DNA of 64,000 nt. It comes from Clarkia xantiana subsp. parviflora (Eukaryota > Streptophyta > Magnoliopsida > Myrtales > Onagraceae). The DNA is taken from positions 2,429,834 through 2,493,833 of the forward strand of contig JAPTYO010000023.1 of assembly GCA_036873135.1 (NCBI GenBank), in the 5' to 3' direction. Shown in pieces: positions 1-37,745 of this stretch (its first letter is position 1; each line of letters opens with the position of its first letter). The notes below the pieces were generated by a model. The model did no database searches, was not told where the DNA came from, and saw only the letters and a program-made list of their open reading frames with translations. The position numbers and the translations under genes are program-made.

Positions 1-287
1 ATCAAACTTCAAATCGATAAATCCAGCCTTTAGAGTTGAATATTAGTGTAAAACATACTATTTACTTTTGATGAGCCAAGATGGAACTAACCTAGTATTG
101 CATTCAAAAGAGCCGGAACCTGGAAATGTTTCAGTTCAGATGCACCTAATTATTGTCGGATTCAAACTTATAAAGTAATTCAAGATCATAATAGATTGAT
201 CCAAAGTTCAATTAATTTAATTTTGATTCGCCCATCTAGTTAGTGTGTTTTTTCTTATCTTTTGTTTCGTTTTCTGCTCTAAAAAGT

Positions 288-360
288 TGATGTAAGCGTG
301 GATCTAACATGCGGCCGATAGATCTTCAGTCTCACTATCTCCCAACTGAGCTATCCCCAT
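288..360 (-). pseudogene. B-class tRNA-Phe pseudogene
   Basis: This 73-nt tRNA-Phe relative keeps the GAA anticodon, but the acceptor stem is destroyed (TGATG in place of TGCGG on the + strand), and the T arm and anticodon stem carry many changes. Confidence 0.8.
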
Positions 361-915
361 TTGTTGATGTTTTGAAGTTACTCAAGAAGTCCTAAACAAC
401 CTAGTTCGATTCTTCCATATTCAAATTTCAATTCTATAAATCCCATCAATTTGAGTCAACTTGAAATGATACAGTAATTTGAGCTCGAGCTGAATATTAG
501 TGTAAAAATTCTTATTTAATTATGATGAGCCAAATGGAACACGCCTATTATTGAGTTCAGAAGAGCCCCAACCTGGGAAAAACTCAGTTCAATATACATT
601 ATGTAAAGATTAAAATATCTTGAGCCAAATTTTAATTAATATAATTTTGATTCTCATTTATAGTTATTTCCTAAGTGCTTATCTTTTGTTTCGTTTTCGA
701 AATTCAAATTCCATTTCAGTAAATCTCATCATTGGGAGTCAACTTGACCTGATACAGTAATTTGAGCTCGAGTTGAATATGAGTGTAAAAATTAAAAAGA
801 ACACGCAAATTAGTGCGTTCAAATGAGCAAACACCTAGTAATGAAACGAAATAGCTTGAGCTTTGTTTGTATTAATCTAATTTAGATTCTCCCTGCTAAT
901 TAGTGTCTATGTTCG

Positions 916-924
916 TATCCCCGC
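916..924 (-). pseudogene. Nine-base relic of a deleted A1 tRNA-Phe
   Basis: Where the A1 tRNA should lie, only the first nine sense bases (TATCCCCGC on the + strand) remain. They are fused to the upstream GTTCGTATC motif. The short ATC/TATC match suggests a microhomology deletion. Confidence 0.6.
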
Positions 925-1018
925 TTGTTAAATTAGTGGACTTAAACAAGAAGCCCCATCCAACATAGTTCAACTCTTCCCTATTCAAACTTCAAATCGA
1001 TAAATCCAGCCTTTAGAG

Positions 1019-1975
1019 TATAGTGAAGGCGACGGTTACACCCATTCGGTCACACCCTAACGCCTCGTCTAACCGCTGCTTTCACTATACCAACTGCTCA
1101 ATCATTCTCTTTTCATTATGGCCACCAAATTCTCAAATATTTGGCTCTCCATGGAAGACCTCGCTAGCTAAAATGTGTAAATTACACATTTGTCCTCACA
1201 TCAATAGTGTTTTTTTATGGGTTAACAGGTCTTTTGGTCCATGATGTTTGACAACTTTTGGGTTTTGGTCCATGATGTTTTTTTTTACCTAGTTTTGGTA
1301 CCATATGTTTGCAGATTTTTTTCTAGTTTTGGTCTAACCGTTACATTCCGTCCATTTTTTGACATGTTCAAGTCACGTGATCCACTCTAAACTTTAAATT
1401 TAGTCCCTCTAATACTTTCTTAATCTTTTTTTTGTTCAATTTAGTCCCGAAGTTTCAAAATTGACCCAAATTGGACAATAGGTCCAATTGAAATTTTGAA
1501 ACTTCGGGACTAAATTGAACAAAAAAAAGGTTAGGAAAGTATTAGAGGGACTAAATTGAACAAAATTAAAAGCTTATGGTGGATCACGTGACTTGTACAT
1601 GTCAAAAAATGGACGGAATGTAACGGTCGGACCAAAAATAGAAAAAATCTGCAAACATATGGTACCAAAACTTGGAAAAAAAACATCATGGACCAAAACC
1701 AAAAAATGGTCAAACATCATGGACCAAAAGACCTGTTAACCCTTTTTTTTATTACATCAATAAAAATCTGTAAAATCAAATTTGTCCTCACATCAATAGT
1801 GTTTTGCATTGCATTGGAAGTGCTCTTTTGCATTCATTGGGGTGTATAGTATGAGAATAGTGTCTATTATCTATTACATCAATAAAAATCTGTAAATTCA
1901 AATTTGTCCTCACATCAATTGTGTCCTCATAAAAAAATAAAAATATGCTCATACTATATACCCCGTTCGGTCAAT
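1019..1975. mobile_element. Composite transposon insertion in the array
   Basis: The array sequence breaks off after CCTTTAGAGT near 1018. About 50 bp of array sequence (from TCAACTCTTCCCTA onward) recurs right after the insert near 1979. The insert has no array similarity. It contains AT-rich DNA, two copies of a TTACATCAATAAAAATCTGT motif (near 1752 and 1875), a short inverted pair (near 1840 and 1950), and a complete foldback element nested at 1219-1742. No coding capacity is visible. Confidence 0.7.
1219..1742. mobile_element. Foldback MITE, GGGTTAA family
   Basis: This element is an almost perfect hairpin of about 524 bp. It begins GGGTTAACAGG and ends CCTGTTAACCC, with arms of roughly 240 bp. 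The flanks are T-rich and compatible with, but not proof of, a 9-bp target duplication. It is a close relative of the element at 57,370-57,873. It is non-coding; open frames across it are incidental. Confidence 0.85.
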
Positions 1976-2281
1976 ATAATTCAACTCTTCCCTAATCAAA
2001 CTTCAAATCGATAAATCCAGCCTTTAGAGTTGAATATTAGTGTAAAACATACTATTTACTTTTGATGAGCCATGATGGAACTAACCTAGTATTGCATTCA
2101 AAAGAGCCGGAACCTGGAAATGTTTCAGTTCAGATGCACCTAATTATTGTCGGATTCAAACTTATAAAGTAATTCAAGATCATAATAGATTGAGCCAAAT
2201 TTCAATTAATCTAATTTTGATTCGCCCATCTAGTTAGTGTGTTTGTTCTTATCTTTTGTTTCGTTTTCTTCTCTAAAAAGT

Positions 2282-2354
2282 TGATATGAGCATGGATCTA
2301 ACATGTGACCGATAGATCTTCAGTCTCACTATCTCCCAACTGAGCTATCCCCAT
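2282..2354 (-). pseudogene. B-class tRNA-Phe pseudogene
   Basis: This is a 73-nt decayed tRNA-Phe. The GAA anticodon is retained, but the acceptor and T stems are disrupted. Confidence 0.8.
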
Positions 2355-2939
2355 TTGTTGATGTTTTGAACTTATTCAAGAAGTCCTAAACAACCTAGTT
2401 CGATTTTTCCATATTCAAATTTCAATTCTATAAATCCCATCAATTGAGTCAACTTGACATGATACATTAATTTGAGCTCGAGCTTAATATTAGTGTACAA
2501 ATTATTATTTAATTATGATGAGCCAAATGGAACACGCCTATTATTGAGTTCAGAAGAGCCCCAACCTGGGAAAAACTCAGTTCAATATACATTATGTAAA
2601 GATTAAAATATCTTGAGCCAAATTTTAATTAATATAATTTTGATTCTCATTTATAGTTATTTCCTAAGTGCTTATCTTTTGTTTCGTTTTCGAAATTCAA
2701 ATTCCATTTCAGTAAATCTCATCATTGGGAGTCAACTTGACCTGATACAGTAATTTGAGCTCGAGTTGAATATGAGTGTAAAAATTAAAAAGAACACGCA
2801 AATTAGTGCGTTCAAATGAGTAAGAACCTAGTAATGAAACGAAATAGCTTGAGCTTTGTTTGTATTAATCTAATTTAGATTCTCCCTGCTAATTAGTGTC
2901 TATGTTCTTATCTTTTGTCTTATTTTCTTCTCTAAAATA

Positions 2940-3012
2940 TTTGATGAGCGTGGATCGAACATGCGAGCTTCAGATCTTCAGTCCGATGCTCTCCCAACTA
3001 AGCTATTCCCGC
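2940..3012 (-). pseudogene. A-class tRNA-Phe, decayed
   Basis: It has the A1 position and length (73 nt) and anticodon GAA. The 3' acceptor strand, T stem, anticodon stem and D arm are all altered, so it is probably non-functional. Confidence 0.75.
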
Positions 3013-3392
3013 TTTTTGATTTATTAAACTTAAACAAGAAGCCCCAGCCAACCTAGTTCGACTTTTCCCTATTCAAACTTAAAATCAATAAATCCAGCAT
3101 TTTGAGTATAGTCGGCCTGATACAGTAATTCGAGCTCAAGTTGAATATTAGTGTAAGACGTACTATTTTCTTTTGATGAGCCAAGATGGAACAAAACTAG
3201 TATTACATTAAAACAAACTGGATCCTGAAAATAACTCGGTTCAAATGCACTCTGATTAGTGTCGGATTTGAATTTATACAGAAATTCTAGATCAGAATAG
3301 TTTTAGCCAAATTTCATTATTATTTTTTTTATTTGCACCTCTGGTTAGTGTGTATGTTCTTATATTTTGTTTCGTTTTCTTATCTAAAAAGA

Positions 3393-3465
3393 TTGCTTAA
3401 GCAGGGATCAAACATGCGACCTTTAGATCTTCAGTACCACCCTTTCCCAACGGAGCTATCCCCGC
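3393..3465 (-). pseudogene. C-class tRNA-Phe pseudogene
   Basis: This 73-nt relic has the 5' acceptor strand and anticodon GAA recognisable. The 3' acceptor strand and T arm are replaced by TTGCTTAAGC-type sequence. Confidence 0.75.
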
Positions 3466-3722
3466 TTGTTGATTTTTTGAACTTAAACAAGAAGTCAAAG
3501 CCAACCTACATCGAGTTTTTCATATTCAAATTTCAATGAATCCCATCATTTCGAGTAAACTTGACATGATATAGTAATTTGAGCTCGAGTTGAATATGAA
3601 TGTAAAAATTAAAAGGAACACGCATATTTGTGAGTTCAAATGAGCAAGAACCTGGTAATTTAGATTCTCTCTGGTTAGTGTCTATGTTCTTATATTTTGT
3701 TTCGTTTTCTTATCTAAAAAGA

Positions 3723-3784
3723 TTGCTTAAGCAAGGATCAAACATGCGACCTTTAGATCTTCAGTACCACCCTTTCGCAACGGA
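3723..3784 (-). pseudogene. Truncated C-class tRNA relic
   Basis: This is a C-class copy cut after CGCAACGGA. It is fused to the GTTAGTGTCTATG flank of the next A1 monomer, so the sense 5' end is missing. Confidence 0.7.
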
Positions 3785-3834
3785 TAGTTAGTGTCTATGT
3801 TTTTATCTTTTGTCTCAAATTCTTCACTTAAATA

Positions 3835-3907
3835 TGCGGTGAGCGTGGATCGAACACGCGACCTTCAGATGTTCAGTCTGACGCTCTCCCAACTAAGCTA
3901 TCCCCGC
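3835..3907 (-). tRNA. trnF-GAA: tRNA-Phe(GAA), near-intact
   Basis: It differs from the seven-copy consensus at two sites: C13 to T in the D stem (G-U pair tolerated) and G37 to C next to the anticodon. Position 37 is normally a modified purine in tRNA-Phe, so decoding may be impaired. Confidence 0.65.
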
Positions 3908-4289
3908 TTGTTTATTTACTAAACTTAAACAAGAAGCCCCAACCTACCTAGTTCGACTTTTCCCTATTTAAACTTCAAACCAATAAATCCAACCTTTTGA
4001 GTAAAGTCGACCTGATACAGTAATTTGAGCTCGAGTTGAATATTAGTGTAAGACGTACTATTTTCTTTTGATGAGCCAAGATGGAACAAAACTAGTATTA
4101 CATTAAAACAATCTGGAACCTGAAAAAGGCTCGGTTAAAATGCACTTTGATTAGTGTCGGATTCAAACTTATACATAAATTCTAGATCATAATAGTTTTA
4201 GCCAAATTTCATTATTTATTTATTTTCATTTGCACCTCTGGTTAGTGTGTATGTTCTTATATTTTGTTTCGTTTTCTTATCTTAAAAGA

Positions 4290-4361
4290 TTGCTTAGGCA
4301 ATGATCAAACATGCGACCTTAAATATTTAGTATCACCCTTTCCCTACGGTGCTATCCCCGC
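4290..4361 (-). pseudogene. C-class tRNA-Phe pseudogene
   Basis: This is a 72-nt relic with one base lost in the anticodon arm. The anticodon region reads as TAA rather than GAA. Confidence 0.75.
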
Positions 4362-4971
4362 TTGTTGATTTTTTGAACTTAAACAAGAAGTCAAAATCAA
4401 CCTAGATCGAGTTTTTCATATTCAAATTTCAATTCAAAGAATCCCATCAATTCGAGTAAACTTGACCTGATACAGTAATTTGGGGTCGAGCTGAATATTA
4501 GTATAAAAATTAATATTTAAATTTGAAGAGCAAAATGGAACACACCTATTATTTTGTTCAACTGAACGCGAACCTCGAAATGACTTAGTTCAGTACACCG
4601 TAAGTAAAGATTGAAATATGTTGAGCCAATCAATTAATTTAATTTTGATTCTCATTTATAGTAAGTGCCTAAGTTCCAGTCTTTTATTTAGTTTTCCATA
4701 TTCAAAATTAATTCAATAAATCTCAACCTTTCGAGTCAACATGACCTGATACAGCAATTTGAGATTGAGTTGAATATTAGTGTAAAAAATATAAGAAACA
4801 CGCCTTTTATTGCATTCAACTGAGCCCGAACATGGTAATGGCTCAGTTCAGTATAAAGTAATTCAAGATCGAAATAGATTATGCATTTCATTTCAATTAA
4901 CCAAAGTTAAGTTCTCCCGTCTAATTAGAGCATCTGTTCTCATCTTTTGTTTCGTTTTCTTCTCTAATATA

Positions 4972-5044
4972 TGCGGTGAGCGTGGATCGAACACGCGACT
5001 TTCAGATCTTCAGTCTGACGCTCTCTCAACTGAGTTATCCCCGC
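4972..5044 (-). tRNA. trnF-GAA: tRNA-Phe(GAA), A2, three changes
   Basis: This is a full 73-nt cloverleaf with anticodon GAA and a normal acceptor stem. G10 is A, one of the D-loop guanines is A, and G45 is A. The first two fall in box A and tertiary-contact positions, so it may be a young pseudogene. Confidence 0.55.
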
Positions 5045-5390
5045 TTGTTGAATTAGTGGACTTAAACAAGAAGCCCCATCCAACATAGTTCAACTCTTCC
5101 CTATTCAAACTTCAAATCGATAAATCCAGCCTTTAGAGTTGAATATTAGTGTAAAACATAGTATTTACTTTTGATGAGCCAAGATGGAACAAACCTAGTA
5201 TTACATTCAAAAGAGTTGGTACCTGGAAATGTTTCAGTTTAGATGCACCTAACTATTGTCGGATTCAAACTTATAAAGTAATTCAAGATCATAATAGATT
5301 GAGCCAAATTTCAATTAATCTAATTTTGATTCGCCCATCTAGTTAGTGTGTTTGTTCTTATCTTTTGTTTCGTTTTCTTCTCAAAAAAGT

Positions 5391-5463
5391 TGATGTGAGC
5401 ATGGATCTAACATGCGACCGATGGATCTTCCGTATCACTATCTCCCAACTGAGTTATCCCCGT
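5391..5463 (-). pseudogene. B-class tRNA-Phe pseudogene
   Basis: This is a 73-nt decayed copy. The anticodon triplet GAA survives within an altered loop, and the stems are disrupted. Confidence 0.8.
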
Positions 5464-6051
5464 TTGTTGATGTTTTGAACTTATACAAGAAGTCCTAAAC
5501 AACCTAGTTCGATTTTTAAATATTCAAATATCAATTCTATAAATCCCATCAATTTGAGTCAACTTGAAATGATACAGTAATTTGAACTCGAGATGAATAT
5601 TAGTGTAAAATTTATTATTTAATTATGATGAGCCAAATGGAACACGCCTATTATTGAGTTCAGAAGAGCCCCAACCTGGAAATGACTCAGTTCAGTATAC
5701 ATTATGTCAAGATCAAAATATCCCGAGCCAAATTTTAATTAATATAATTTTGATTCTTATTTATAGTTATTTCCTAAGTGCTTATCTTTTGTTTCGTTTT
5801 CCAAATTCAAATTCCATTTCAGTAAATCTCATCATTTGGAGTCAACATGACTTGATATAGTAATTTGAGCTCGAGTTGAATATGAGTGTAAAAATTAAAA
5901 GGAACACGCATATTTGTGCGTTCAAATGAGCAAGAACCTGCTAATGAAACGAAATAGCTTGAGCTTTGTCTGTATTAATCTAATTTAGATTCTCCCTTCT
6001 AATTAATGTGTCTATGTTCGTATCTTTTGTCTCAATTTCTTCTCTAAAATA

Positions 6052-6124
6052 TAGAGTGAGCGTGGAACGAACACGCGACCTTCAGATCTTCAGTTTAACG
6101 CTCACCGAACTGAGCTATCCCCGC
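6052..6124 (-). pseudogene. A1 tRNA-Phe, decayed
   Basis: It is an A1-position copy of 73 nt with anticodon GAA. Changes in the acceptor 3' strand, the T loop (GGAACG), the anticodon stem and the D stem make it a probable pseudogene. Confidence 0.7.
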
Positions 6125-6481
6125 TTGTTGATTTATTAAACTTAATCAAGAAGCCCCAGCCTACCTAGTTCGAATTTCCCTATTCAAACTTCAAATCAAT
6201 AAATCCAACCTTTTGAGTAAAGTCGACCTGATATAGTAATTTGATCTCGTGTTGAATATTAGTGTAAAACGTACTATTTTCTTTTGATGAGCCAAGATGG
6301 AATAAAACTAGTATTACATTAAAACAATCTAGAACCTGATTAGTGTCGGATTCAAACTTATACAAAAATTCTAGATCAGAATAGTTTTAGCCAAATTTCT
6401 TTTTTTTTTCTTTTTTTTCATTTGCACCTCTGGTTAGTGTGTATGTTCTTATATTTTGTTTCGTTTTCTTATCTTAAAAGA

Positions 6482-6527
6482 TGTCTTAAGCAATGATCAA
6501 ACATGCGACCTTAAATATTCAGTATCA
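6482..6527 (-). pseudogene. Truncated C-class tRNA relic
   Basis: This C-class copy ends after CAGTATCA. It is joined directly to the downstream ATTTCAATTCAATGAATCCCA flank, so the whole sense 5' half is deleted. Confidence 0.7.
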
Positions 6528-6757
6528 ATTTCAATTCAATGAATCCCACCTATTATTGTGTTCAACTGAACGCGAACCTCGAAATGACTTAGTTCAGTAC
6601 ACCGAAAGTCAAGATCCCGAACATGGTAATGGCTCAGTTCAGTATATAGTAATTCAAGATCGAAATAGATTGAGCATTTCATTTAACCAAATTTAAGTTC
6701 TCCCCTTTAATTAGAGCATCTGTTCTCATCTTTTGTTTCGCATTCTTCTCTAATATA

Positions 6758-6830
6758 TGCGGTGAGCGTGGATCGAACACGCGACCTTCAGATCTTCAGT
6801 CTCACGCTCTCCCAAATGAGCTATCCCCGC
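6758..6830 (-). tRNA. trnF-GAA: tRNA-Phe(GAA), A2, two changes
   Basis: It is a 73-nt tRNA with intact acceptor and T arms and GAA anticodon. C28 to G breaks one anticodon-stem pair, and a D-loop base (G15) is T. Confidence 0.6.
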
Positions 6831-7175
6831 TTGTTGAATTAGTGGACTTAAACAAGAAACCCCAGCCAACATAGTTAAACTCTTCCCTATTCAAACTTCA
6901 AATCGATAAATCCAGCCTGTAGAGTTGAATATTAGTGTAAAACATACTATCTACTTTTGATGAGTCAAGATGGAACAAACCTAGTATTACATTCAAAAGA
7001 GCTGGTACCTGGAAATGTTTCAGTTTAGATGCACCTAACTATTGTCGGATTCAAACTTATAAAGTAATTCAAGATCATAATAGATTGATCCAAATTTCAA
7101 TTAATCTAATTTTGATTCGCCCATCTAGTTAGTGTGTTTTTTCTTATCTTTATTTCATTTTCTTCTCTAAAAAGT

Positions 7176-7248
7176 TGATGTGAGCGTGGATCTAACATGC
7201 GACCGATAGATCTTAAATCTCACTATCTCCCAACTGAGCTATCCCCGT
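7176..7248 (-). pseudogene. B-class tRNA pseudogene, anticodon UAA
   Basis: It is a B-class relic of 73 nt in which G34 is T, so the anticodon reads UAA. The acceptor and T stems are disrupted. Confidence 0.8.
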
Positions 7249-7834
7249 TTGTTGATGTTTTGAAGTTACTCAAGAAGTCCTAAACAACCTAGTTCGATTT
7301 TTCCATATTCAAATTTCAATTCTATAAATCCCATCAATTTGAGTCAACTTGAAATGATACAGTAATTTGAGCTCGAGCTGAATATTAGTGTAAAAATTAT
7401 TATTTAATTATGATGAGCCAAATGGAACACGCCTATTATTGAGTTCAGAAGAGCCCCAACCAGGAAATGACTCAGTTCAGTATACATTATGTCAAGATCA
7501 AAATATCTTGAGCTAAATTTTAATTAATATAATTTTGATTCTCCTTTATAGTTATTTCCTAAGTGCTTATCTTTTGTTTCGTTTTCCAAATTCAAATTCC
7601 ATTTCAGTAGATCTCATCATTTGGAGTCAACTTGACCTGATACAGAAATTTGAGCTCGAGTTGAATCTGAATGTAAAAATTAAAATGAACACGCATATTT
7701 GTGCGTTCAAATGAGCAAGAACCTGGTAATGAAACGAAATAACTTGAGCTTTGTTTGTATTAATCTCATTTAGATTCTCTTTGCTAATTAGTGTCTATAT
7801 TCTTATCTTTTGTCTCAAATTCTTCTCTTAAATA

Positions 7835-7859
7835 TGCGGTGAGCGTGGATCGAACACGC

Positions 7860-7902
<43 letters not shown>

Positions 7903-7907
7903 CCCGC
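7835..7907 (-). tRNA. trnF-GAA: tRNA-Phe(GAA), consensus copy 1
   Basis: Cytosolic tRNA-Phe reads UUC/UUU codons. The sense sequence runs from GCGGGGATAGCTCAGTTGG to CACGCTCACCGCA. Anticodon GAA is flanked by C32/T33 and G37/A38, the T loop is TTCGATC, and there is no intron and no encoded CCA. It agrees with the plant cytosolic tRNA-Phe as I recall it. Upstream on the sense strand is CAACAA, fitting the CAA initiation motif of plant tRNA genes. No run of four or more T follows until about 150 nt downstream (7682-7685), so a normal close Pol III terminator is missing. Confidence 0.96.
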
Positions 7908-8286
7908 TTGTTGATTTACTAAACTTAAACAAGAAGCCCCAACCTACCTAGTTCGACTTTTCCCTATTTAAACATCAAATCAATAAATCCAACCTTTTGA
8001 GTAAAGTCGACCTGATACAGTAACTTGAGCTCGAGTTGAATATTAGTGTAAGACGTACTATTTTCTTTTGAAGAGCCAAGATGGAACAAAATTAGTATTA
8101 CATTAAAACAATCTGGAACCTGAAAAAGGCTCGGTTCAAATGCACTCTGATTAGTGTCGGATTAAAACTTATACAGAAATTGTAGATTCATAATAGTTTT
8201 AGCCAAATTTCATTATCTTTTTTCATTTGCACCTCTGGTTAGTGTGTATGTTCTTATGTTTTGTTTCGTTTTCTTATCTTAAAAGA

Positions 8287-8358
8287 TTGCTTAAGCAATG
8301 ATCAAACATGCGACCTTAAATATTTAGTATCACCCTTTCCCTACGGAGCTATCCGAGC
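8287..8358 (-). pseudogene. C-class tRNA-Phe pseudogene
   Basis: This is a 72-nt relic with the anticodon region reading TAA. The 5' acceptor strand is also mutated (TCCGAGC on the + strand). Confidence 0.75.
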
Positions 8359-8828
8359 TTATTGATTTTTTGAACTTAAACAAGAAGTCAAAAGCAATCT
8401 AGATCGAGTTTTTCATATTCAAATTTCAATTCAACGAAACCCATCATTTCGAGTAAACTTGACCTGATACAGTAATTTGGGGTCGAGCTGAATATTAGTA
8501 TAAAAATTACTATTTAAATTTGAAGTGCAAAATGGAACCCACCTATTATTGTGTTCAACTGAACGCGAGCCTCGAAATGACTTAATTTAATTTAATTTTG
8601 ATTCTCATTTATAGTAAGTGCCTAGTTTCCAATCTTTAATTTAGTTATCAACATTCAAAATTAATTCAATAAATCTCATCATTTCGAGTCAACACACCTT
8701 TTATTGCATTCATTCAATTGAGCCCGAACATGGTAATGTTTAGTCTAATTCAATTAACCAAATTTAAGTTCTCCCCTCCAATTAGAGCATCTTTTCTCAT
8801 CTTTTGTTTCGTTTTCTTCTCTAATATA

Positions 8829-8901
8829 TGAGGTGAGCGTGGATCGAACACGCGACCTTCAGATCTTCAGTCTGACGCCCTCCCAACTGAGCTATCCCCG
8901 C
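8829..8901 (-). tRNA. trnF-GAA: tRNA-Phe(GAA), A2, two changes
   Basis: It is 73 nt with anticodon GAA. A23 to G keeps a G-U pair, while G71 to T breaks the second acceptor pair. Function is uncertain. Confidence 0.65.
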
Positions 8902-9247
8902 TTGTTGAATTAGTGGACTTAAACCAGAAACCCCAGCCAACATAGTTAAACTCTTCCCTATTCAAACTTCAAATCGATAAATCCAGCCTGTAGAGTTGAA
9001 TATTAGTGTAAAACATACTATCTACTTTTGATGAGTCAAGATGGAACAAACCTAGTATTACATTCAAAAGAGCTGGTACCTGGAAATGTTTCAGTTTAGA
9101 TGCACCTAACTATTGTCGGATTCAAACTTATAAAGTAATTCAAGATCATAATAGATTGATCCAAATTTCAATTAATCTAATTTTGATTCGCTCATCTAGT
9201 TAGTGTGTTTTTTCTTATCTTTTGTTTCGTTTTCTTCTCTAAAAAGT

Positions 9248-9906: not shown

Positions 9907-9933
9907 TGCGGTGAGCGTGGATCGAACACGCGG

Positions 9934-9974
<41 letters not shown>

Positions 9975-10936: not shown

Positions 10937-10963
10937 TGCGGTGAGCGTGGATCGAACACGCGG

Positions 10964-11004
<41 letters not shown>

Positions 11005-27151: not shown

Positions 27152-28517
27152 TCAATAAATTTCATCCTCCGCAAGCTCCCTCATCAACTTATATGTCTTG
27201 TCCTCAATAGCAGCACTAAAGGGAGAGGTATTCAGATACTCAACAAAGCCCGCCTCCACTCTTTCCTTAGGAGCGGTCTCACATACAACAACCAACGCTG
27301 CCTCGCGCGCATTAAGATCATCAGTGACCTTCTTCTCAAGAGAAATCATCTCAGTCTAAAGCTCATAAATTCGACCCTGACGTGCGTTGAAACGAGCCTC
27401 AGAATCGGCGACCTTCGAACCAAGTACACGCACCTTCTCTTCAAACTGTGTAAGTTCACGACATGTGACATTACACTTGTCAACAGCTGCCTTCTTCTGA
27501 CTTGAGAGTTCCATCACAAAGGACGACATGTTAACCATGTGTGCAACAGCCTGAAAAACAGTATGGTAAAAACAAAGGCATAAGACTTACACAGCCAAGG
27601 AACACACTGACACAAGTAACAAAAAGGAGAAGTTTGGTTACTCAAAGGAGCGAACCCAGCCAAAGAACTCTCCACATAGGCCTCAGCCTCTTCATCAGTC
27701 AACGGGCAGGTATGTCGGTCACCCGGAGGAACGCACCTACGAAGAACACGCACACCAACTTCTGGTGTGCTAAGCTTGGAATCCTTTGGGAAATGAACAC
27801 CACCATTGGCAAAGGGAGTCCATTCATCCCCAGAGATATCGCCCTCCAAAGGACGAATCAGGTGGTCATGCCTCAATGCGGGAAGTGCTGAAAGGAAAAC
27901 AACATAAGAAAATGTAGACCATAGACAAATGTACAAGGAATGAAATTGAAAGACGTACATAACTCAAACCTCGATGTGGAGGGCGCTCCTCTGCGGGTCG
28001 ATCCCTCGACCGGGGGGCAGAAGGCGCCGTAGTACGACCTGCAACTCATTTCCCTTTATCGCAGGTAGGAGTTTGGACGACCGTACTAGTCTTGGAGCGC
28101 TTAAGGTCGCTCGAGGCACGCGCCTCCACGTCGGATCTCTTTGCAGGAGGGCTAGGGTCAGGCACCGGAGCGATACACTCAGTAACGGGCGCTGAACGAC
28201 CTGCGAACAAAGGCAATGTGAAAATAACGAATCAAGAAAATAACAAAGTTATATGAAGCCACAAGGATACATCTTACCCATAAGTCCCTTCCCGCGACCG
28301 TATCCAGAGGCCGCATGGGTCACGGGGGCAGGGGACAGTGTAGTCCCGCCAGCAGGAGAAGTACCGCGTGCAGACACCGCATGCAAAGTCGAACTTTTTC
28401 CAACAAACCAATCTGCAACTCGACACCATGAAAGTTACAAAGGTTGTCGACATCCGACTCATCACTGTCATCAGAACATAAAGCAGCTTGCGGAGTGGGA
28501 ATAAGAGACTTACTCAT
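27152..28517 (-). pseudogene. Decayed multi-exon, probably transposon-derived gene
   Basis: Several minus-strand coding segments separated by intron-like gaps can be read. The first begins MSKSLIPTPQAALCSDDSDE (start 28,517). A basic segment follows near 28,190-27,970 (contains PSPPAKRSDVEARASS). The next, near 27,890-27,640, contains HDHLIRPLEGDISGDEW. The last, near 27,556-27,152, is predicted coiled-coil (SSQKKAAVDKCNVTCRELTQ). A CAG acceptor is visible just before the last segment. At least two in-frame stops occur, a TGA near 28,050 and a TAG near 27,354. The 3' end is cut off where the tRNA array starts. The layout of a disordered basic region followed by a C-terminal coiled coil resembles gag-like or transposon-associated plant proteins. 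I do not recognise a specific family. Confidence 0.5.
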
Positions 28518-28739
28518 GATAGTGAGTCAGTGACTTCAACGGAGGGACCAATGCAAGCAAAAACCACCTCGACCCTGCAACCTGAAAATACGACCAACAG
28601 TCGGGTCAATGCTCATTAGTCTACAAACGTCAAACGACGAACACTCTGCATATATCAACCACTATGACAACATCCGCCCTATGACTTCATCAAGCCTATG
28701 GAAACAACATGCATGGCAATGGATAAAGAAAAAATTCTA

Positions 28740-28822
28740 AGTGTTGGAGCAAGCGTGCACATACAAGCACGCACATACAAGCGCACACATAGAAGCGCAC
28801 GCATACTCAGCTAGCACGCATA
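28740..28822. repeat. Short ACATACAAGCGC minisatellite
   Basis: This is a degenerate tandem run of about 14-bp units (CACGCACATACAAG type). No gene is seen between 28,518 and 28,858. Confidence 0.6.
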
Positions 28823-28858
28823 TGGATGGTAGTATGGTCATGAAACAAAGAGCCAATC

Positions 28859-29150
28859 AAGGAATATTTTCTAAGTGTTCCATTATGTCAGCAGTCGACA
28901 TATGACGAGGTGTCGACTATCGAGGAATATTTTCCAAGTGTTCCCCCATGTCAGCAGTCGACATATGACAAGGTGTCGACTATCAAGAAATATTTTCTAA
29001 GTGTTCCACCATGCAGCAATCGACATATAACGAGGTGTCAACTATCAAGGGATGTTTTCTAAGTCATCCACTATGGCAGCAGTCGACATATGACAAAGTA
29101 ATGACCATCAAGAAATACTTTCTAAGTATTTTCCTATGTCGGCAATCAAC
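28859..29150. repeat. Tandem repeat, about 63-bp unit, five copies
   Basis: Successive units begin near 28,859, 28,922, 28,985, 29,047 and 29,109. They share AATATTTTCTAAGTGTTCC and CAGTCGACATATGAC motifs with increasing divergence to the right. It is non-coding. Confidence 0.8.
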
Positions 29151-30228
29151 AACAGTCGACAAAGATCAAATAAAGACAATCATGGTAACGAGCATTAAAT
29201 ATCTCAAAAATATTTGCTAAGTATTTTATCATGATTGCAGACAGCGTACGATGCTCAATGAACAATATGCAACAACCAACTTACAACGGCCAACAACTAT
29301 GTCCGGACATCGACTAACAATCAACATTAAGCATGCCAAAACGTCATTCAAAGCATGGTGCAACATGTTGGCAATGATCACTATGCATAAGGGAAGTTTA
29401 ACAACTTATTTCCATTTTTCTAAAAATTTCAGCACTTAGCAAATTTTTGGCCGATTTGTGAAGGTAACTATTATTGGGAATTTTATCAAACACCTTATGT
29501 GCATGTTAAGGTAATCAAATTCATGAAGGTTTCAAGAGTAAATCAAGACTAAGCAAGGTCATAAAAAGGCTAGCCATGCACGGAATTGGTCTCACCTCGC
29601 CAAGCCGATCGAACCACCCTACAAACCACCACGAACCACCGCCCAAGAGCTCACGCGCCGCCAGGAAGCTCACGCGCCGCTGCTGTTTCGCTCTGAACCG
29701 CCACAACGCCGCCTTGTCGTCACCGTCGACCTCCACTCGCGATTCCGTCGTGGTAGTCGGGATTGATGGTGGCCGACCCTCTCTTTCTAGGTGGCCAAGT
29801 CTTTTACTCCAAAGGTGTCTTCTTCTTCAAGAATTGAGAGGATTCTAAAAACTACTAAGGGTGGAGGTTTAACTAATGGATATTCTCTCTCCTATATCTA
29901 TCCACAATTATCTATAGGTATTTCCTAAAACTTTCACTATTTCTTGTTAAGCCCCTAAAATGGCATGATTATGTGTTGTTATCTTCTCATTACAGCACTT
30001 ATGATTCTCTAGACTCATTTTTAGCAATCATGACTGCATGATATGTGCACATAATCTAGCGCGCACTATGTCATCTCAAAATGCATGATTCGTGTTTTTT
30101 ATTATTGCATGATTATTTTCATAATTCAATTATTGATTATGTGCTCACATCTTTTACATCATGTCATCACATTCATGTTAACATCATAGACCATGATTGC
30201 ACACATCCATGAGAATTATTGCTTAAGT
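29151..30228. other. Unrecognised transposon-island DNA
   Basis: There is no supportable gene here. A GC-rich stretch at about 29,570-29,770 lies in otherwise AT-rich sequence and gives overlapping open frames on both strands, with none resembling a known family. The context suggests transposon leader or LTR material. Confidence 0.4.
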
Positions 30229-30395
30229 CCATTATCATGTGTGCACTGTCTGTTGTTCATTGCTATGTGTCCACTGTCATGTGTGCACTGTCCGCTGTTC
30301 ATTGCTATGTGTCCACTGTCATGTGTTCACTTTCCACTGTTCACTACTATATGTGCACTGTCTATTGTTCATTTTTATATGCACATTGCTTGTTT
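30229..30395. repeat. Tandem repeat, about 41-bp unit, four copies
   Basis: The repeating core has GTGCACTGTC, TGTTCATTGCTATG and TGTCCACTGTCATG motifs. It gives three overlapping cysteine-rich open frames, which are repeat artefacts. Confidence 0.75.
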
Positions 30396-30574
30396 CACTA
30401 ACCATGTCAGCAGTTAATGAGTCTCCCGACAAGAATTAAAGTGGAGCAAAATCAAGGCCTTCGCGCCCGATTGTCAAACAAGCCACCCCTGAGGTCAGCA
30501 CCGAACCTAAATTGGGCTTATATCCTATCTTAAAATATAGTCAATTATGGTCTGAACTGTTACTTGACTCGGGG

Positions 30575-31342
30575 GCAAGTGATGGATATCTGCCCATTTC
30601 GGGTTCGTATTTACATTTCGGACTTCATAAACACGTCGAAAATCGCATAACGGATCCAAAACGCGTCACCCGAGGTTCAAAACGGTCCGGAAGCGCGGCA
30701 TACGCGTCCGGATTGTCCACAGGCAATCCGAACCCCGTCGGATTGCCTAAGTCTGACAGGGTTCGGACTGCTGTCTAGGTACCGTGCGCTACCCCTGTTT
30801 ACGTACACTGAGTAAAGAGTCTCCCAAATCCAAACTTAATCAAACCAGACGACGGTTCCTAGTTTCCTTTAAGACTGGCGTCGAACCGCACAGAAATCGG
30901 GCTCGGTTCTAAGATTGCCTATAAATAGGGGACCTTGGCCACCCATTTCAACTCATATTCTCAAGAGATTGGCTTTAGAGTTCTGACCTCTCTCTAGAAT
31001 CGTATTTAAGCATCAGAGAGGGCTCAACCAGCGCCGCCACCCCCCCCCCCCTCAGTGTACGTAAACAGGGGTAGCGCGCGGTACCTAGACAGCAGTCCGA
31101 ACCCCGCCAGACTTAGGCAATCCGACGGGGTTGGGATTGCCTGTGGACAATCCGGGTCGTCCGGATTACCTAAGGGCAACTTGGACGGGTCGGATTGCCA
31201 GCAATCCGGACGCGCATGCCGCGCTTCCGGACCGTTTTGAACCTCGGGTGACGCATTTTGGATTTGTTATGCGATTTTCAACGTGTTTATGAAGTCCGGA
31301 ATGTAAATACGAACCCGAAATGGGCAGATATTCATCACTTGC
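30575..31342. mobile_element. Large inverted repeat around a TATA-bearing spacer
   Basis: The left arm (30,575-30,812) and right arm (31,051-31,342) are inverted copies. They share, for example, CTACCCCTGTTTACGTACACTGAG in opposite orientation and GAATATCTGCCC-type ends. The spacer 30,817-31,050 has a good TATA box (CTATAAATAGGGG near 30,920) and ends in a run of C. It looks like rearranged LTR material rather than an intact element. Apparent open frames in the arms are not convincing. Confidence 0.65.
30817..31050 (+). repeat. LTR-like repeat, copy 1
   Basis: It is a direct copy of 31,467-31,701 with about 95% identity by eye. Features in order are GAGTCTCCCAAATCC, a TATA box (TATAAATAGGGG), CTCTAGAATC, GGGCTCAACCAGCGC and a poly-C run. 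The TATA placement suggests a promoter-bearing LTR or leader. Confidence 0.7.
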
Positions 31343-31466
31343 TCGAAGCCGGCGAAGTGCACATTGCCGACAATCAACTACCGTCATCCGACAACCAGCT
31401 GCCATCATCCGACAACCCACTGCCGTCATCCGACTACCCGACACGATCACAACCCGAAGTGCCAAA
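31341..31466. repeat. CATCCGACAACC-rich repeat, copy 1
   Basis: It starts GCTCGAAGCCGGCGAAGTGC and contains four short CATCCGACAAC/CATCCGACTAC units. It is repeated at 31,739-31,863. Confidence 0.75.
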
Positions 31467-31701
31467 GAGTCTCCCAAATCCAAACTTAATCAAACCAGAC
31501 GACGGTTCCTAGTTTCCTTTAAGACTGGCGTCGAACCGCACAGAAACCGGGCTCGCTTCTAAGGTTGCCTATAAATAGGGGACCTTGGCCACCCATTTCA
31601 ACTCATATTCTCAAGAGATTGGCTTTGGAGCTCTGACCTCTCTCTAGAATCTTATTTAAGCATCGGAGAGGGCTCAACCAGCGCTACCCCCCCCCCCCCC
31701 T
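31467..31701 (+). repeat. LTR-like repeat, copy 2
   Basis: It is the second direct copy of the TATA-bearing repeat (TATA near 31,570). It is followed by CTCTGTGCTGGTTATTGCCC and then the second CATCCGAC repeat, so repeat pairs alternate with a period of about 400 bp. Confidence 0.7.
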
Positions 31702-31738
31702 CTGTGCTGGTTATTGCCCTTTGTGTAGGTAAGGAGCG

Positions 31739-31863
31739 CTCGAAGCCGGCGAAGTGCACATTGCTGAAAATCAGCTACTGTCATCCGACAACCAGCTGCC
31801 ATCATCCGACAACCCACTGTCATCATCCGACTACCCGACACGATCACAACCCGAAGTGCCGAA
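31739..31863. repeat. CATCCGACAACC-rich repeat, copy 2
   Basis: It is near-identical to 31,341-31,466. About 30 bp beyond its end the tRNA array resumes with GAGCTCGAGTTGAATATGAG. Confidence 0.75.
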
Positions 31864-31945
31864 GAGTCCAACTCCCCGGTTGGATTTGGACGCAACAGAG
31901 CTCGAGTTGAATATGAGTGTAAAAATTAAGTGGAACACGCATATT

Positions 31946-31969
31946 ATCTCCCAACTGAGCTATCCCTGT
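31946..31969 (-). pseudogene. B-class tRNA fragment
   Basis: Only the sense 5' third (TCTCCCAACTGAGCTATCCC region) remains. It is joined to AACACGCATATT from another monomer. Confidence 0.6.
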
Positions 31970-32291
31970 TTGTTGATTTTTTGAACTCATTCAAGAAGTC
32001 CTAAACAACCTAGTTCGATTTTTCCATATTCAAATATCAATTCTATAAATCCCATCAATTTGAGTCAACTTGAAATAATACAGTAATTTGAGCATGAGCT
32101 GAATATTAGTGTAAAATTATTAATTAATTATGATGAGCCAACTGGAACACGCCTATTATTGAGTTCAGTTGAGCGAACACGCATGTTAATGCGTTCAAAT
32201 GAGCTAGAACCTGGTAATGAAACGAAATAGCCTCCCTGCTAATTAATGTCTATGTTCTTATATTTTTTTTCTAATATTCATCTCTAAAATA

Positions 32292-32364
32292 GGCGGTGAG
32301 TGAAGATCGAACACGCGACCTTCAGATCTTCAATATGACACTTTCCCAACTAAGCTATCCCTTC
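32292..32364 (-). pseudogene. A-class tRNA-Phe, decayed
   Basis: It is 73 nt. The anticodon loop is near-intact, but the T stem, D stem and both acceptor strands are mutated. Confidence 0.7.
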
Positions 32365-32745
32365 TTATTGATTTATTGAACTTTAACAAGAAGTCCTAGC
32401 CAACCTAGTTCGACTTTTCCCTATTCAAACTTCAAATCAATAAATCAAGCCTTTTGAGTAAAGTCGACCTGATAAAGTAATTTGATCTCTAGTTGAATAT
32501 TAGTGTAAGACGTACTATTTTCTTTTGATAAGCCAAGATGGAACAAAACTAGTATTATATTAAAACAAACTGGAACCTAAAAAATGGCTCGGTTCAAATG
32601 CACTCTGATTAGTGTCGGATTTAAACTTATATAGAAATTTTAGATCAGAATAGTTTTAGCCAAATCTCATTATTATTATTTTCATTTGCACCTCTGGTTA
32701 GTGTGTATGTTCTTATATTTTGTTTCGTTTTCTTATCTAAAAAGA

Positions 32746-32818
32746 TTGCTTACGTAAGGATCAAACATGCGGCCTTTAGATCTTTAGTACCACCATTTCC
32801 CAACAGAGCTATCCCCGC
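32746..32818 (-). pseudogene. C-class tRNA-Phe pseudogene
   Basis: It is 73 nt with the 5' acceptor strand intact. The anticodon region and T arm are degenerate. Confidence 0.7.
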
Positions 32819-33318
32819 TTGTTGATTTTTTGAACTTAAACAAGAAGTCAAAACCAACCTAGATCGGGTTTTTCATATTCAAATTTCAATTCAATGAATC
32901 CCATCATTTCGAGTAAACTTGACCCGATACAGTAATTTGAGGTGAGCTGAATATTAGCATAAAAATTACTATTTAAATTTGAAGAGCCAAATTGAACACA
33001 CCTATTATTGTGTTCAACTGAACGCGAACCTCGAAATGACTTAGTTCAAGACACTGTAAGTCAAGATTGAAATATGTTGAGCCAATCAATTAATTTAATT
33101 TTGATTCTCATTTATAGTAAGTGCCTAAGTTCCAATCTTTTATTTAGTTTTCCATATTCAAAGCTAATTCAATAAATCTCATATTTCCGAGTCAACATGA
33201 CCTAATACAGTAATTTGAGATTGAGTTGAATATTAGTGTAAAAAATATGGAACACACCTTTTATTGCATTCAACTGAGCTTGTTCTCATCTTTTGTTTCG
33301 TTTTCTTCTCTAAAATAT

Positions 33319-33391
33319 AAATATGAGTGTGGATCAAACACGCGACCTTCAGATCTTTAGTATTACGCTCTCCAAACTTAGCTATCCCCGC
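33319..33391 (-). pseudogene. A-class tRNA-Phe, decayed
   Basis: It is 73 nt. The 3' acceptor strand is lost and there are changes in the T loop, anticodon stem and D loop. Confidence 0.7.
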
Positions 33392-33737
33392 TTGATGAAT
33401 TAGTGGACTTAAACAAGAAGCCCCATCCAACATAGTTCAATTATTCCCTATTCAAATTTCAAATCGATAAATCCAGCCTTTAGAGTTGAATATTAGTGTA
33501 AAACATAATATTTACTTTTGATGAGCCAAGATGGAACAAATCTAGTATTACAATCAAAAGAGCTGGTACCTGGAAATGTTTCAGTTTAGATGCACATAAT
33601 TATTATCGGATTCAAACTTATAAAGTAATTCAAGGTCATAATAGAATGAGCCAAATTTCAATTAATCTAATTTTGATTCGCCCATCTAGTTAGTGTGTTT
33701 GTTCTTATCTTTTGTTTCGTTTTCTTCTCTAAAAAGT

Positions 33738-33810
33738 TGATATGAGCATGGATCTAACATGCGACCGATGGATCTTTAGTCTCACTATCTCCCAACTGAG
33801 CTATCCCCGT
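33738..33810 (-). pseudogene. B-class tRNA pseudogene
   Basis: It is 73 nt. The anticodon region reads AAA (CTTTAG on the + strand) and the stems are disrupted. Confidence 0.7.
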
Positions 33811-34017
33811 TTGTTGATGGTTTGAACTTATTCAAGAAGTCCTAAACAACCTAGTTCGATTTTTCCATATTCAAATTTCAATTTTATAAATCCCATCAAT
33901 TTTAGTCAACTTGAAATGATACAGTAATTTGAGATCGAGCTGAATATTAGTGTAAAAATTATTATTTAATTATGATGAGCCAACTGGAACACGCCTATTA
34001 TTAAGTTCAGAAGAGCC

Positions 34018-34074
34018 CAAACATGCGACCTTTAGATCTTCAATATCACCCTTTCCCAACGGAGCTAACCCCGC
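34018..34074 (-). pseudogene. Truncated C-class tRNA relic
   Basis: The sense 3' end is missing. AAACATGCGACC is fused to AGAAGAGCCC of a D-type monomer. Confidence 0.65.
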
Positions 34075-34526
34075 TTGTTGATTTTTTGAACTTAAACAAG
34101 AAGTCAAAACCAAACTAGATCGTGTTTTTCATATTCAAATTTCAATTCAGTGAATCCCATCATTTCGAGTAAACTTGACCCGATACAGTAATTTGAGGTC
34201 GAGCTGAATATTAGTATAAAAAATAATATTTAAATGTGAAGAGCCAAATGGAACACACATATTATTGTGTTTAACTGAACGCGAACCTCGAAAAAACTTA
34301 GTCCAGTACAGCGTAAGTCAAGATTGAAATATGTTGAACCAATCAATTAATTTAATTTTGATTCTCATTTATAGTAAGTGCCTGAGTTCCAATATTTTAT
34401 TTAGTTTTCCATATTCAAAACTAATTCAATAAATCTCATCCTTTCGAGTCAACATGACACGATACAGCAATTTGAGATTTGAGAGCATATGTTCTCATCT
34501 TTTGTTTTGTTTTCTTTTCTAAAATA

Positions 34527-34599
34527 TGCGGTGAGCATGGATCTAACTCGCAACCTCCATATTTTCAGTGTGATGCTCTCCAAACTGAGTTATCCCCGC
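34527..34599 (-). pseudogene. A2 tRNA-Phe, decayed
   Basis: It is 73 nt with the acceptor stem intact. The T arm, variable loop, anticodon stem and D arm have many changes. Confidence 0.7.
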
Positions 34600-34945
34600 T
34601 TGATGAATTAGTGGACTTAAACAAAAAGCCTCAGCCAACATAGTTCAACTCTTCCCTATTCAAACTTCAAATCGATAAATCCAGCCTTTAGAGTTGAATA
34701 TTAGCTTAAAACATACTATTTACTTTTGATGAGCCAATATGGAACAAACCTAGTATTACATTCAAAAGAGCCGGTGCCTGGAAATGTTTCTTTTTAGATG
34801 CACCTAATTATTGACGGATTCAAACTTATAAAGTAATTCAAGATCATAACAGATTGAGCCAAATTTCAATTAATCTAATTTTGGTCCGCCCATCTAGTTA
34901 GTGTGTTTGTTCTTATCTTTTGTTTCGTTTTCTACTCTAAAAACT

Positions 34946-35018
34946 GGTTGTGAACATGGATCTAACATGCGATCGATGGATCTTCACTCTCACTATCTCC
35001 CAAATGAGCTATCCCCGT
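34946..35018 (-). pseudogene. B-class tRNA-Phe pseudogene
   Basis: This is a 73-nt decayed copy with GAA retained. Confidence 0.7.
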
Positions 35019-35509
35019 TTGTTGATGTTTTGAACTTATTCAAGAAGTCCTAAACAACCTAGTTCGATTTTTCCATATTCAAATTTCAATTCTATAAATG
35101 CCATCAATTTGACTAAACTTGACATGATACATAATTTGAGCTCGAGCTGAATATTAGTGTAAAAACTATTATTTAACTATGATGAGCCAAGTGGAACACG
35201 CCTATTATTGAGTTTAGAAAAGCCCCAACCTGGAAATGAATCAGTTCAGTATACATTATGTCAAGATCAAGATATCTTGAGCCAAATTTTAATTAATATA
35301 ATTTTGATTCTCATTTATAGTTATTTCCTAAGTTCTTATCTTTGGTTTCGTTTTACAAATTCAAATTCGTTTTCAATAAATCTCATCATTTGGAGTCAAA
35401 TTGACCTGATACAGTAATTTGAGCTCGAGTTGAATATGAGTGTTATAATTAAAATGAACACGCATATTAGTGCGTTCCCATCTTATGTCTCATTTTCTTC
35501 TCTAAAATA

Positions 35510-35582
35510 TGCGGTGAGCGTGGATCAAACACGAGACCTTCACATCTTCAGCCTGACGCTCTCCCAACTGAGCTATACCCGC
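35510..35582 (-). pseudogene. A1 tRNA-Phe, decayed
   Basis: It is 73 nt with GAA and a good T stem. It carries about five changes across the T loop, variable region, anticodon stem and acceptor. Confidence 0.7.
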
Positions 35583-35955
35583 TTGTTGATTTATTGAACT
35601 TAAACAAGAAGCCCCAGCCAACCTAATTCGACTTTTCCCTATTCAAATTTCAAATAAATAAATCCAGCCTGTTGAGTCAAGTCGACCTGATACAGTAATT
35701 TGAGCACAAGTTAAATATTAAGACGTACTATTTTCTTTTGATGTACAAAGATGGAACAAAACTAGTGTTACATTAAAATAAACTGGAACCTGAAAATGGC
35801 TCGGTTCAGATGCACTCTGATTAGTGTCAGATTCAAACTTATACAGAAATTCTAGATCAGAATAGTTTTAGCCAAATTTCATTATTATTTTTCGTTCGCA
35901 CCTTTGGTTAGTGTGTATGTTCTTATATTTGTTTTGTTTTTTTTATCTAAAAAGA

Positions 35956-36028
35956 TTGCTTAAGCAAGGATCAAACATGCGACCTTTAGATCTTCGGTAT
36001 CACCCTTTCCCAATGGAGCTATCCCCGC
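35956..36028 (-). pseudogene. C-class tRNA-Phe pseudogene
   Basis: It is 73 nt. The 5' acceptor strand is intact and the remainder degenerate. Confidence 0.7.
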
Positions 36029-36575
36029 TTGTTGAGTTTTTGAACTTAAACAAGAAGTCAAAACCAATCTAGATCAAGTTTTTCATATTCAAATTTCAAT
36101 TCAATGAATCCCATCATTTCGAGTAAACTTGACCCGATACACCTATTATTGTGTTCAACTGAACGCGAACCTCGAAATGACTTAGTCAAGTACATCGTAA
36201 GTCAAGATTGAAATATGTTGAGCCAAATTTCAATTAATTTAATTTTGATTCTCATTTGTAGTAAGTAGTGCCTAAGTTCCAATCTTTTATTTAGTTTTCC
36301 ATATTCAAAATTAATCCAACAAATCTCATCATTTCGAGTCAACATGACCATATACAGCAATTTGAGATTGAATTGAAAATTAGTGTAAAAAATATATGGA
36401 ACACACATTTTATTGCATTCAACTGAGCCCGAACATGGAACTGGCTCAGTTTAGTATATAGTAATTCAAGATCGAAATAAATAGAGCATTTCTTTTCAAT
36501 TAACCAAATTTAAGTTCTCCCCTCTTAATTAGAGCATATGTTCTCATCTTTTGTTTCGTTTTCTTCTCTAAAATA

Positions 36576-36602
36576 TGCGGTAAGCGTGGATCGAACACGT
36601 GG

Positions 36603-36638
<36 letters not shown>

Positions 36639-36648
36639 TTATCCCCGG
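36576..36648 (-). pseudogene. A2 tRNA-Phe, lightly decayed
   Basis: It is the best-preserved copy of the right block. The anticodon arm is perfect, but G1 is lost (CCGG) and the D stem, T stem and acceptor have single changes. Confidence 0.65.
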
Positions 36649-36995
36649 TTGTTGATTTAGTGGACTTAAAAAAGAAGCCCCCAGCCAACATAGTTCAACT
36701 CTTCTCTATTCAAACTTCAAATCGATGAATTCAGCCTTTAGAGTTGAATATTAGTGTAAAACATACTATTTACTTTTGATGAGCCAAGATGGAACAAACC
36801 TAGTATTACATTCAAAAGAGCCGGAACTTGGAAATGTTTCAGTTCAGATGCACCTAATTATTATCGGATTCAAACTTATAAAGTAATTCATGATCATAAT
36901 AGATTGAGCCAAATTTCAATTAATCTAATTTTGATTCGCCCCTCTACTTAGTGTGTTTGTTCTTATCTTTTGTTTCGTTTTCTTCTCTAAAAAAT

Positions 36996-37068
36996 TGATG
37001 TAAGCATGGATCTAACATGCGACCGATGGATCTTCAGTTTCACTATCTCCCAATTGAGTTATCCCCCT
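36996..37068 (-). pseudogene. B-class tRNA-Phe pseudogene
   Basis: This is a 73-nt decayed copy with GAA. Confidence 0.7.
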
Positions 37069-37369
37069 TTGTTGTTGTTTTGAACTCATTCAAGAAGTCC
37101 TAAACAACCTAGTTCGAGTTTTCCATATTCAAATTTCAATTCTATAAATCCCATCAATTTGAGTATACAGTAATTTGAGCTCGAGCTGGATATTAGTGTA
37201 AAAATTATTATTTAATTATGATGAGCCAAATGGAACACGCCTATATTGAGTTCAGAAGAGTCCTAATCTGGAAATGACCCAGTTCAGTATCCATTATGTC
37301 AAAATCAAAATATCTTGAGCCAAATTTTAATTAATATAATTTTGATTCTCATTTATATTTAGTTCCTAA

Positions 37370-37558
37370 GTTCTTATCTTTTGTTTTGTTTTCCAATATC
37401 AAATTTCATTTCACTAAATCTCATCATTTAGAGTCAACTTAACATGATACAGTAATTTGAGCTAGTTCTTATCTTTTGTTTTGTTTTACAATATCAAATT
37501 TCATTTCACTAAATCTCATCATTTGGAGTCAACTTGACATGATACAGTAATTTGAGCT
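37370..37558. repeat. Direct duplication within a D monomer
   Basis: About 94 bp starting AGTTCTTATCTTTTGTTTTG is present twice in tandem with few differences. It is a local duplication outside the normal monomer period. Confidence 0.75.
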
Positions 37559-37678
37559 CGAGTTGAATATGAGTGTAAAAATTTAAAGGAACACGCTTAT
37601 TAGTGCATTCAACTGAGCCCGAATTTGGAAATGAAATAGCATGTTCTTATCTTTTGTCTCATTTTCTTCTCTAAAATA

Positions 37679-37745
37679 TATAGTGAGAGTGGATCGAACA
37701 TGCGACCTTCAAATCTTCAGTCTGATGCTATCCCAACTGAGCTAT
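37679..37745 (-). pseudogene. Truncated A-class tRNA-Phe at the array border
   Basis: About 67 of 73 nt remain. The sense 5' end is cut inside the acceptor strand (after GAGCTAT on the + strand), where non-array integrase sequence begins. Confidence 0.75.

Follow-up and report, generated by a model that had tools for sequence, protein, structure and literature searches.

The stretch of Clarkia xantiana subsp. parviflora DNA analyzed here (64,000 nucleotides of contig JAPTYO010000023.1; "the window") contains an array of tRNA-Phe genes and tRNA-Phe relics in a six-part repeating pattern. The pattern is real and well ordered. The left edge of the window cuts the array, which continues past position 1. 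ARAGORN identified 22 tRNA-Phe(GAA) genes in the window, 22/22 on the minus strand and all of them Phe. Rfam gave 26 tRNA matches that reached the gathering score. A 73-bp tRNA-Phe consensus was searched against the whole window with blastn (E value up to 1). It gave 62 matches between 292 and 37745, and all 62 were on the minus strand. They range from perfect genes to short relics; one is just 20 bp long and one has an E value of 0.011. The same search gave no tRNA-Phe match beyond 37745. The locus contains what defines a tandem tRNA cluster, many like tRNA genes in one orientation. An earlier sequence-only reading had counted about 60 copies or relics and about 29 copies of a class termed A. 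Both counts hold, and we counted 29 A copies.

The six-monomer unit

The reference unit (17435..15277) is 2,159 bp long. Its self-alignment shows that the 2.16-kb unit consists of two 1.08-kb trimers, and that these halves are 73.8% identical. The six segments of the unit align as one homologous monomer, composed of a tRNA and a spacer. In the order of transcription, they are A1 (intact tRNA), E (no tRNA), C (relic), A2 (intact tRNA), D (no tRNA), and B (relic). The A copies at 32364 and 37751 are not assignable to A1 or A2.

Tiling gave 103 monomer pieces. We counted the 80 that had at least 85% of the reference length and dropped 23. Among these 80 near-complete monomers, 68/69 adjacent pairs follow the cyclic order A1-E-C-A2-D-B. 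Over 2000 label shuffles, the mean was 11.5 pairs in order and the maximum was 23. There are 8 complete uninterrupted hexamers. Read on the plus strand, the order is A1-B-D-A2-C-E. A six-monomer unit of about 2.1 kb had been proposed from the sequence with the order A1, C, E, A2, B, D, which is the same order with the half-labels exchanged. The unit, its six recurring classes, and their fixed order were all recovered by self-alignment, monomer tiling, the spacer tree (below), and the pair counts.

The core of the array is homogenized. Its eight units, one of which is a short unit of 1,337 bp, are 95.1 to 99.3% identical, and identity is mostly highest between neighbors. The array has both marks of a higher-order repeat. 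Distinct monomer classes, each a single clade, recur in a fixed order, and the core units are far more alike than the two halves of one unit.

The only pair out of order is in the short unit. There, E 22840 is joined straight to D 22553, and C and A2 are dropped. This junction is likely a scar of the kind that unequal exchange between paralogous monomers would leave. In another unit, a 28-bp duplication (2 copies) is present at 18349-18404 inside an A2 monomer; it explains the extra length of that unit.

The hexamer order is also found in the diverged edges (Table 1), although truncated pieces break it there. The likeness of order suggests that the hexamer predates the homogenized core. The array had been described as one of about 33 kb. 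It is present, but interruptions lie at about 27167-31944 and 1020-1971, and the array extends beyond the window.

TABLE 1 Features of the tRNA-Phe array (monomers are those of the reference unit)
Feature	Position	Strand	Details
tRNA-Phe higher-order-repeat array	1..37745	-	62 blastn matches and monomer tiling; left edge open, interrupted twice
Homogenized core, hexamers of ~2.16 kb	6831..27166	-	8 complete hexamers; eight A1-to-A1 units 95.1-99.3% identical
Reference unit	15277..17435	-	2,159 bp; self-alignment
A1 monomer	17142..17435	-	294 bp; tRNA-Phe body intact; lacks TTTT within 50 bp
E monomer	16807..17141	-	335 bp; tRNA deleted
C monomer	16356..16806	-	451 bp; decayed tRNA relic, TTTT kept
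A2 monomer	16035..16355	-	321 bp; tRNA-Phe body nearly intact (a single change here); lacks TTTT within 50 bp
D monomer	15695..16034	-	340 bp; tRNA deleted, junction same as E
B monomer	15277..15694	-	418 bp; decayed tRNA relic, TTTTT kept
E-to-D junction	22548..22840	-	unit without C and A2, 1,337 bp; sole out-of-order pair of 69
Diverged left part	1..6830	-	mixed A copies; TTTT kept in 6124 and 3012, not kept in 6830, 5044, and 3907
Diverged right edge	31945..37745	-	A copies with decayed bodies, TTTT kept
Insertion interrupting the array	27167..31944	.	no monomer match; GC 0.45-0.48 over 28-32 kb

Gene bodies and terminators

The core consensus sequences of A1 and A2 (9 copies each) were compared over the gene body and over the ungapped bases directly beside the gene. 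They differ at 0/73 body positions and at 13/73 adjoining bases (7/45 upstream and 6/28 downstream; Fisher P = 1.4e-4). To judge from these sequences, the tRNA-Phe body was retained while its surroundings diverged and was not free to drift. The identity ends sharply at the gene edges, which favors selection over conversion. Its cause is most likely purifying selection and is possibly short-tract conversion. The locus had been presented as a case of satellite-like evolution in an essential gene family. This description fits the spacers, the deletions, and the relics, but it does not fit the A1 and A2 core bodies.

Columns that have varied since the core was amplified make up 15/146 of the body versus 78/468 of the flank in the A classes (P = 0.065). 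The corresponding counts in the relics are 13/144 and 76/724 (P = 0.65). In the A2 core alone, 10/73 body columns and 42/248 flank columns are variable. These counts are weak evidence for constraint since the core was amplified.

The sequence that follows the gene differs among the A copies. Edge A copies read TATTTTAG. Core A1 copies read TATATTAG, except for one that reads TATATTCG, and core A2 copies read TATTTAAG or TATTGAAG. The T-run is broken differently in core A1 and core A2, by two distinct breaks. A run of four T's (T4) is kept at +3 or +4 in 8/29 A copies, and the bodies of these copies carry 5 to 13 changes (those of 33391 and 37751 were counted without gaps and are inflated by a short indel or the array end). 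The remaining 21/29 contain no T4 within 50 bp, and their bodies carry 0 to 4 changes. Rfam scores were 51.1 to 66.1 bits for these 21 well-preserved copies. Five of the 8 decayed copies scored 33.8 to 41.4 bits, and three were below the gathering score. The relics keep a near T4 or T5 in 16/16 B copies and in 13/13 C copies, the latter count leaving out copy 6553 (a rearranged relic), one of 14 complete C copies. No A copy (0/29) has a T4 within 50 bp together with a body of at most 4 changes. None of the 29 has the intact body, upstream CAA, and near T4 of a canonical efficient tRNA gene.

The split by copies is perfect (8 versus 21), with a probability of 1/C(29,8) = 2.3e-7. We rejected it as proof of selection. 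The copies share ancestry, and two losses are enough to produce the split. In 14/148 four-column spacer windows, neither the A1 core nor the A2 core matches the inferred ancestor, so the spacer's own rate of change gives the terminator pattern a two-event chance of about 0.1. A stricter pattern, in which both A cores are changed and B, C, and the edges are unchanged, was found in 3/148 of these spacer windows. The terminator is not among them because the T-run of core C has shortened to four. The pattern of bodies and terminators is best taken as a lead rather than proof.

C-to-T events per site were 0.31 in CG, 0.34 in CHG, and 0.23 in CHH contexts. This excess is a weak sign of methylation. 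The observed/expected ratio of CpG (0.83 in the core versus 0.77 in the flank) shows no depletion and gives it no support.

History of the array

A tree was built from the spacers of the 80 monomers, with the tRNA and the terminator region excluded. Branch values are from the Shimodaira-Hasegawa-like approximate likelihood ratio test (SH-aLRT). A single branch separates each of the six classes from the rest (SH-aLRT 96 to 100). D and E are sisters (SH-aLRT 91), as are B and C (SH-aLRT 97). The tree does not settle how A1 and A2 join. D and E begin at one common deletion junction, which lies beside short GAAAAC-like homology. B and C have the body mutations C28G, G42A, and G51A in common. The common junction and the shared mutations place the loss of the tRNA and the early decay before the trimer split.

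We rejected two other histories. The junction and the sister relation rule out that D and E lost the tRNA independently. The three shared mutations rule out that B and C decayed independently throughout; the later decay of B and C was separate, with 4 private sites in B, 12 in C, and 6 sites changed differently. The sequence-only reading, in which monomers had independently kept, decayed, or lost the tRNA, is contradicted by the same evidence. The simplest history that fits these sequences would start from a trimer whose slots were intact, deleted, and decaying, pass to two trimers, and end in the alternating hexamer.

We consider it probable that the locus is a tandem nuclear tRNA-Phe cluster that grew and was homogenized by unequal exchange in nested steps and is now largely idle. 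Homology of the six monomers suggests a start by tandem duplication of one tRNA-Phe gene together with its spacer of about 350 bp. Within a trimer, one deletion would have emptied slot 2, and slot 3 would have begun to decay; the junction and the shared mutations support this step. The trimer would then have given rise to two lineages, about 26% apart, with the slot-1 bodies staying identical. The alternating pair of trimers would have become the 2.16-kb unit and would have been amplified and homogenized, as seen in the monomer order and the similarity of the units. The scar at 22.6 kb points to unequal exchange. The near T-run would have been broken in both slot-1 lineages by different mutations, and both breaks are present in the core. 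With the T-run broken, RNA polymerase III (Pol III) should read through and re-initiate poorly. The array now probably makes little tRNA. It would be a largely idle by-product, and its intact bodies would be a legacy of a time when it was functional.

Assemblies of long tandem arrays are prone to error, and the regularity of the array could be an artifact. We regard this as highly improbable. The eight core units differ by 0.7 to 4.9%, the core is flanked by diverged edges with private mutations, and the monomer order is alike to the left and to the right of the insertion at 27-32 kb. Tandem arrays also undergo conversion. Gene conversion, not selection, might have made the A1 and A2 bodies identical in an array that was a neutral satellite throughout, and the A2 core bodies do vary almost like their flanks. 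We find this hard to accept, since the identity of A1 and A2 stops at the gene edges and the relic bodies of B and C were never converted back.

Several observations weigh against an idle array. The upstream CAA is present in 28/29 A copies and in 18/18 core copies. Seven of the 29 A copies have the exact consensus body. Given the CAA and these bodies, expression is possible. The next T-run in the 21 copies without a near terminator is at +61 to +279. A1 core bodies have 0.9% changes per base versus 4.3% in their flanks, and this lower rate may be continuing constraint. A T4 within 50 bp is reported for 72.8% of 29,463 dicot tRNA genes (PMC11700998; here and below, papers are cited for what their excerpted text states). 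About 27% lack one, so a missing T4 is no proof of silence. The array could instead be a working tRNA-Phe supply, with A1 and A2 transcribed and selected, Pol III ending at the distant T-runs, and the trailers trimmed. The CAA in all core copies, the identical A1 and A2 core bodies, the Rfam scores of the 21 well-preserved copies (51 to 66 bits), and the somewhat lower variability of A-class body columns (P = 0.065) agree with a supply. A study in yeast describes fail-safe termination, in which transcription that passes its primary terminator is ended further downstream (PMC9278858). We consider a supply unlikely, as TTTT is absent within 50 bp in 21/21 of these copies, body constraint within the core is weak, and Arabidopsis clusters are reported to be mostly silent (PMC10701932, PMC12308677).

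Surroundings, known arrays, and meaning

The insertion of about 4.8 kb contains direct repeats of 237 bp (30814 and 31464; 96%) and 131 bp (31341 and 31738; 95%). It also contains inverted repeats with 141- and 105-bp arms and a 63-bp tandem repeat. It looks like nested mobile DNA. The second gap, at 1020-1971, is about 950 bp long, has no monomer match, and lies within a B monomer. A 95-bp tandem pair (96%) is present at 37369-37558, near the right end of the array.

Gene fragments are present 7 to 15 kb from this right end. A Miro GTPase fragment at 45147-45587 matches a solved Mitochondrial Rho GTPase 1 (E = 4.3e-20). Reading frames for mevalonate kinase are present at 51084-53003, and 2/3 contain GHMP kinase domains. 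The best match of the mevalonate kinase frame has 96% identity, and those of genera such as Cornus, Rubus, and Rosa have 74 to 79% (among the 120 of 277 matches listed). The matches include mevalonate kinases of plants. The surroundings of the array are plant nuclear DNA that bears genes. We take the Miro GTPase and mevalonate kinase genes, side by side at 45147-53003, to be near each other in Arabidopsis as well. The frame at 63168-63602 resembles, by eye, an amidase or outer-envelope 64-type protein. It has no Pfam match and no solved-structure match.

Alpha-satellite-type higher-order repeats consist of diverged monomers in a fixed order that form a highly similar multimer. The array shares this organization. 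It differs in that its monomer is derived from a tRNA gene and in that it is not centromeric as far as seen.

The structure had been thought undescribed for tRNA-Phe. We found no tRNA-Phe array with higher-order structure in the open-licence papers searched, but tandem plant tRNA clusters are known, and one has a unit of about 0.4 kb with a pseudogene (PMC10701932). This is the tRNA-Cys cluster on chromosome 5 of Arabidopsis thaliana, with 4 to 6 tandem units of about 420 bp. It is like our array in being nuclear, in having one kind of tRNA in a tandem unit, and in containing a pseudogene. It changes copy number by whole units. It differs in its Pol III termination signals, which are reported to be present, in its Helitron annotation, and in having no higher-order structure reported in the excerpted text (PMC10701932). 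The Ser-Tyr-Tyr and Pro clusters on Arabidopsis chromosome 1 are also large tandem tRNA arrays. They are reported to be methylated and mostly silent, and transgenic copies are active (PMC12308677, PMC11700998). They encode other tRNAs and, as excerpted, have a gene in each slot, with no built-in deleted or relic slots.

Other tandem plant arrays are the maize tRNA-Ile cluster of 28 (PMC11700998) and the moss Val-Glu-Phe repeats, whose unit includes tRNA-Phe (PMC12652284). Neither is made of tRNA-Phe only, and the excerpts mention no six-monomer structure. Pike 5S rRNA arrays are similar in having a Pol III gene that is uniform, variable spacers, and higher-order blocks. They differ in having >20,000 copies, in being from a fish, in showing little pseudogenization, and in having spacer variants grouped in blocks, with no fixed hexamer (PMC5437419). 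Genes for tRNAs are also in tandem units in the human 7.3-kb repeat (PMC4041453) and in Entamoeba (PMC2652664). The Entamoeba units hold several tRNA genes and the human unit is large and GC-rich; the excerpts of both leave nested monomer decay unmentioned. What is known is the tandem plant tRNA cluster, and what is new is the six-monomer higher-order repeat with built-in dead slots.

Surveys group tRNA genes that are at most 1 kb apart (PMC2888827, PMC12652284) or that number 3 per kb (PMC11700998). Only 3/17 A-to-A gaps in the core are at most 1000 bp, a threshold that is survey convention and not biology. The gaps are about 0.4 to 0.65 kb when relics are counted. The well-preserved copies are about 1.08 kb apart, so 1-kb rules may miss or split such arrays unless relics are counted.

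Two features deserve following, the terminator pattern and the retention of the A body. It is possible, though doubtful, that terminator loss licensed amplification, so that only copies disabled in the body or the terminator could multiply. An intact body with an intact Pol III terminator would be barred through excess tRNA or through conflict between Pol III and replication. If this is true, an essential gene would have to be disarmed before it could grow as a satellite, and A1 and A2 would each have been disarmed by mutations of their own. The relation between bodies and terminators hints at a rule, open to testing, for what allows tRNA arrays to expand. At this one locus, a tandem gene family turning satellite-like can be read in the order of its events: first deletion and then decay, next divergence that spared the gene body, and finally multimer formation and homogenization.

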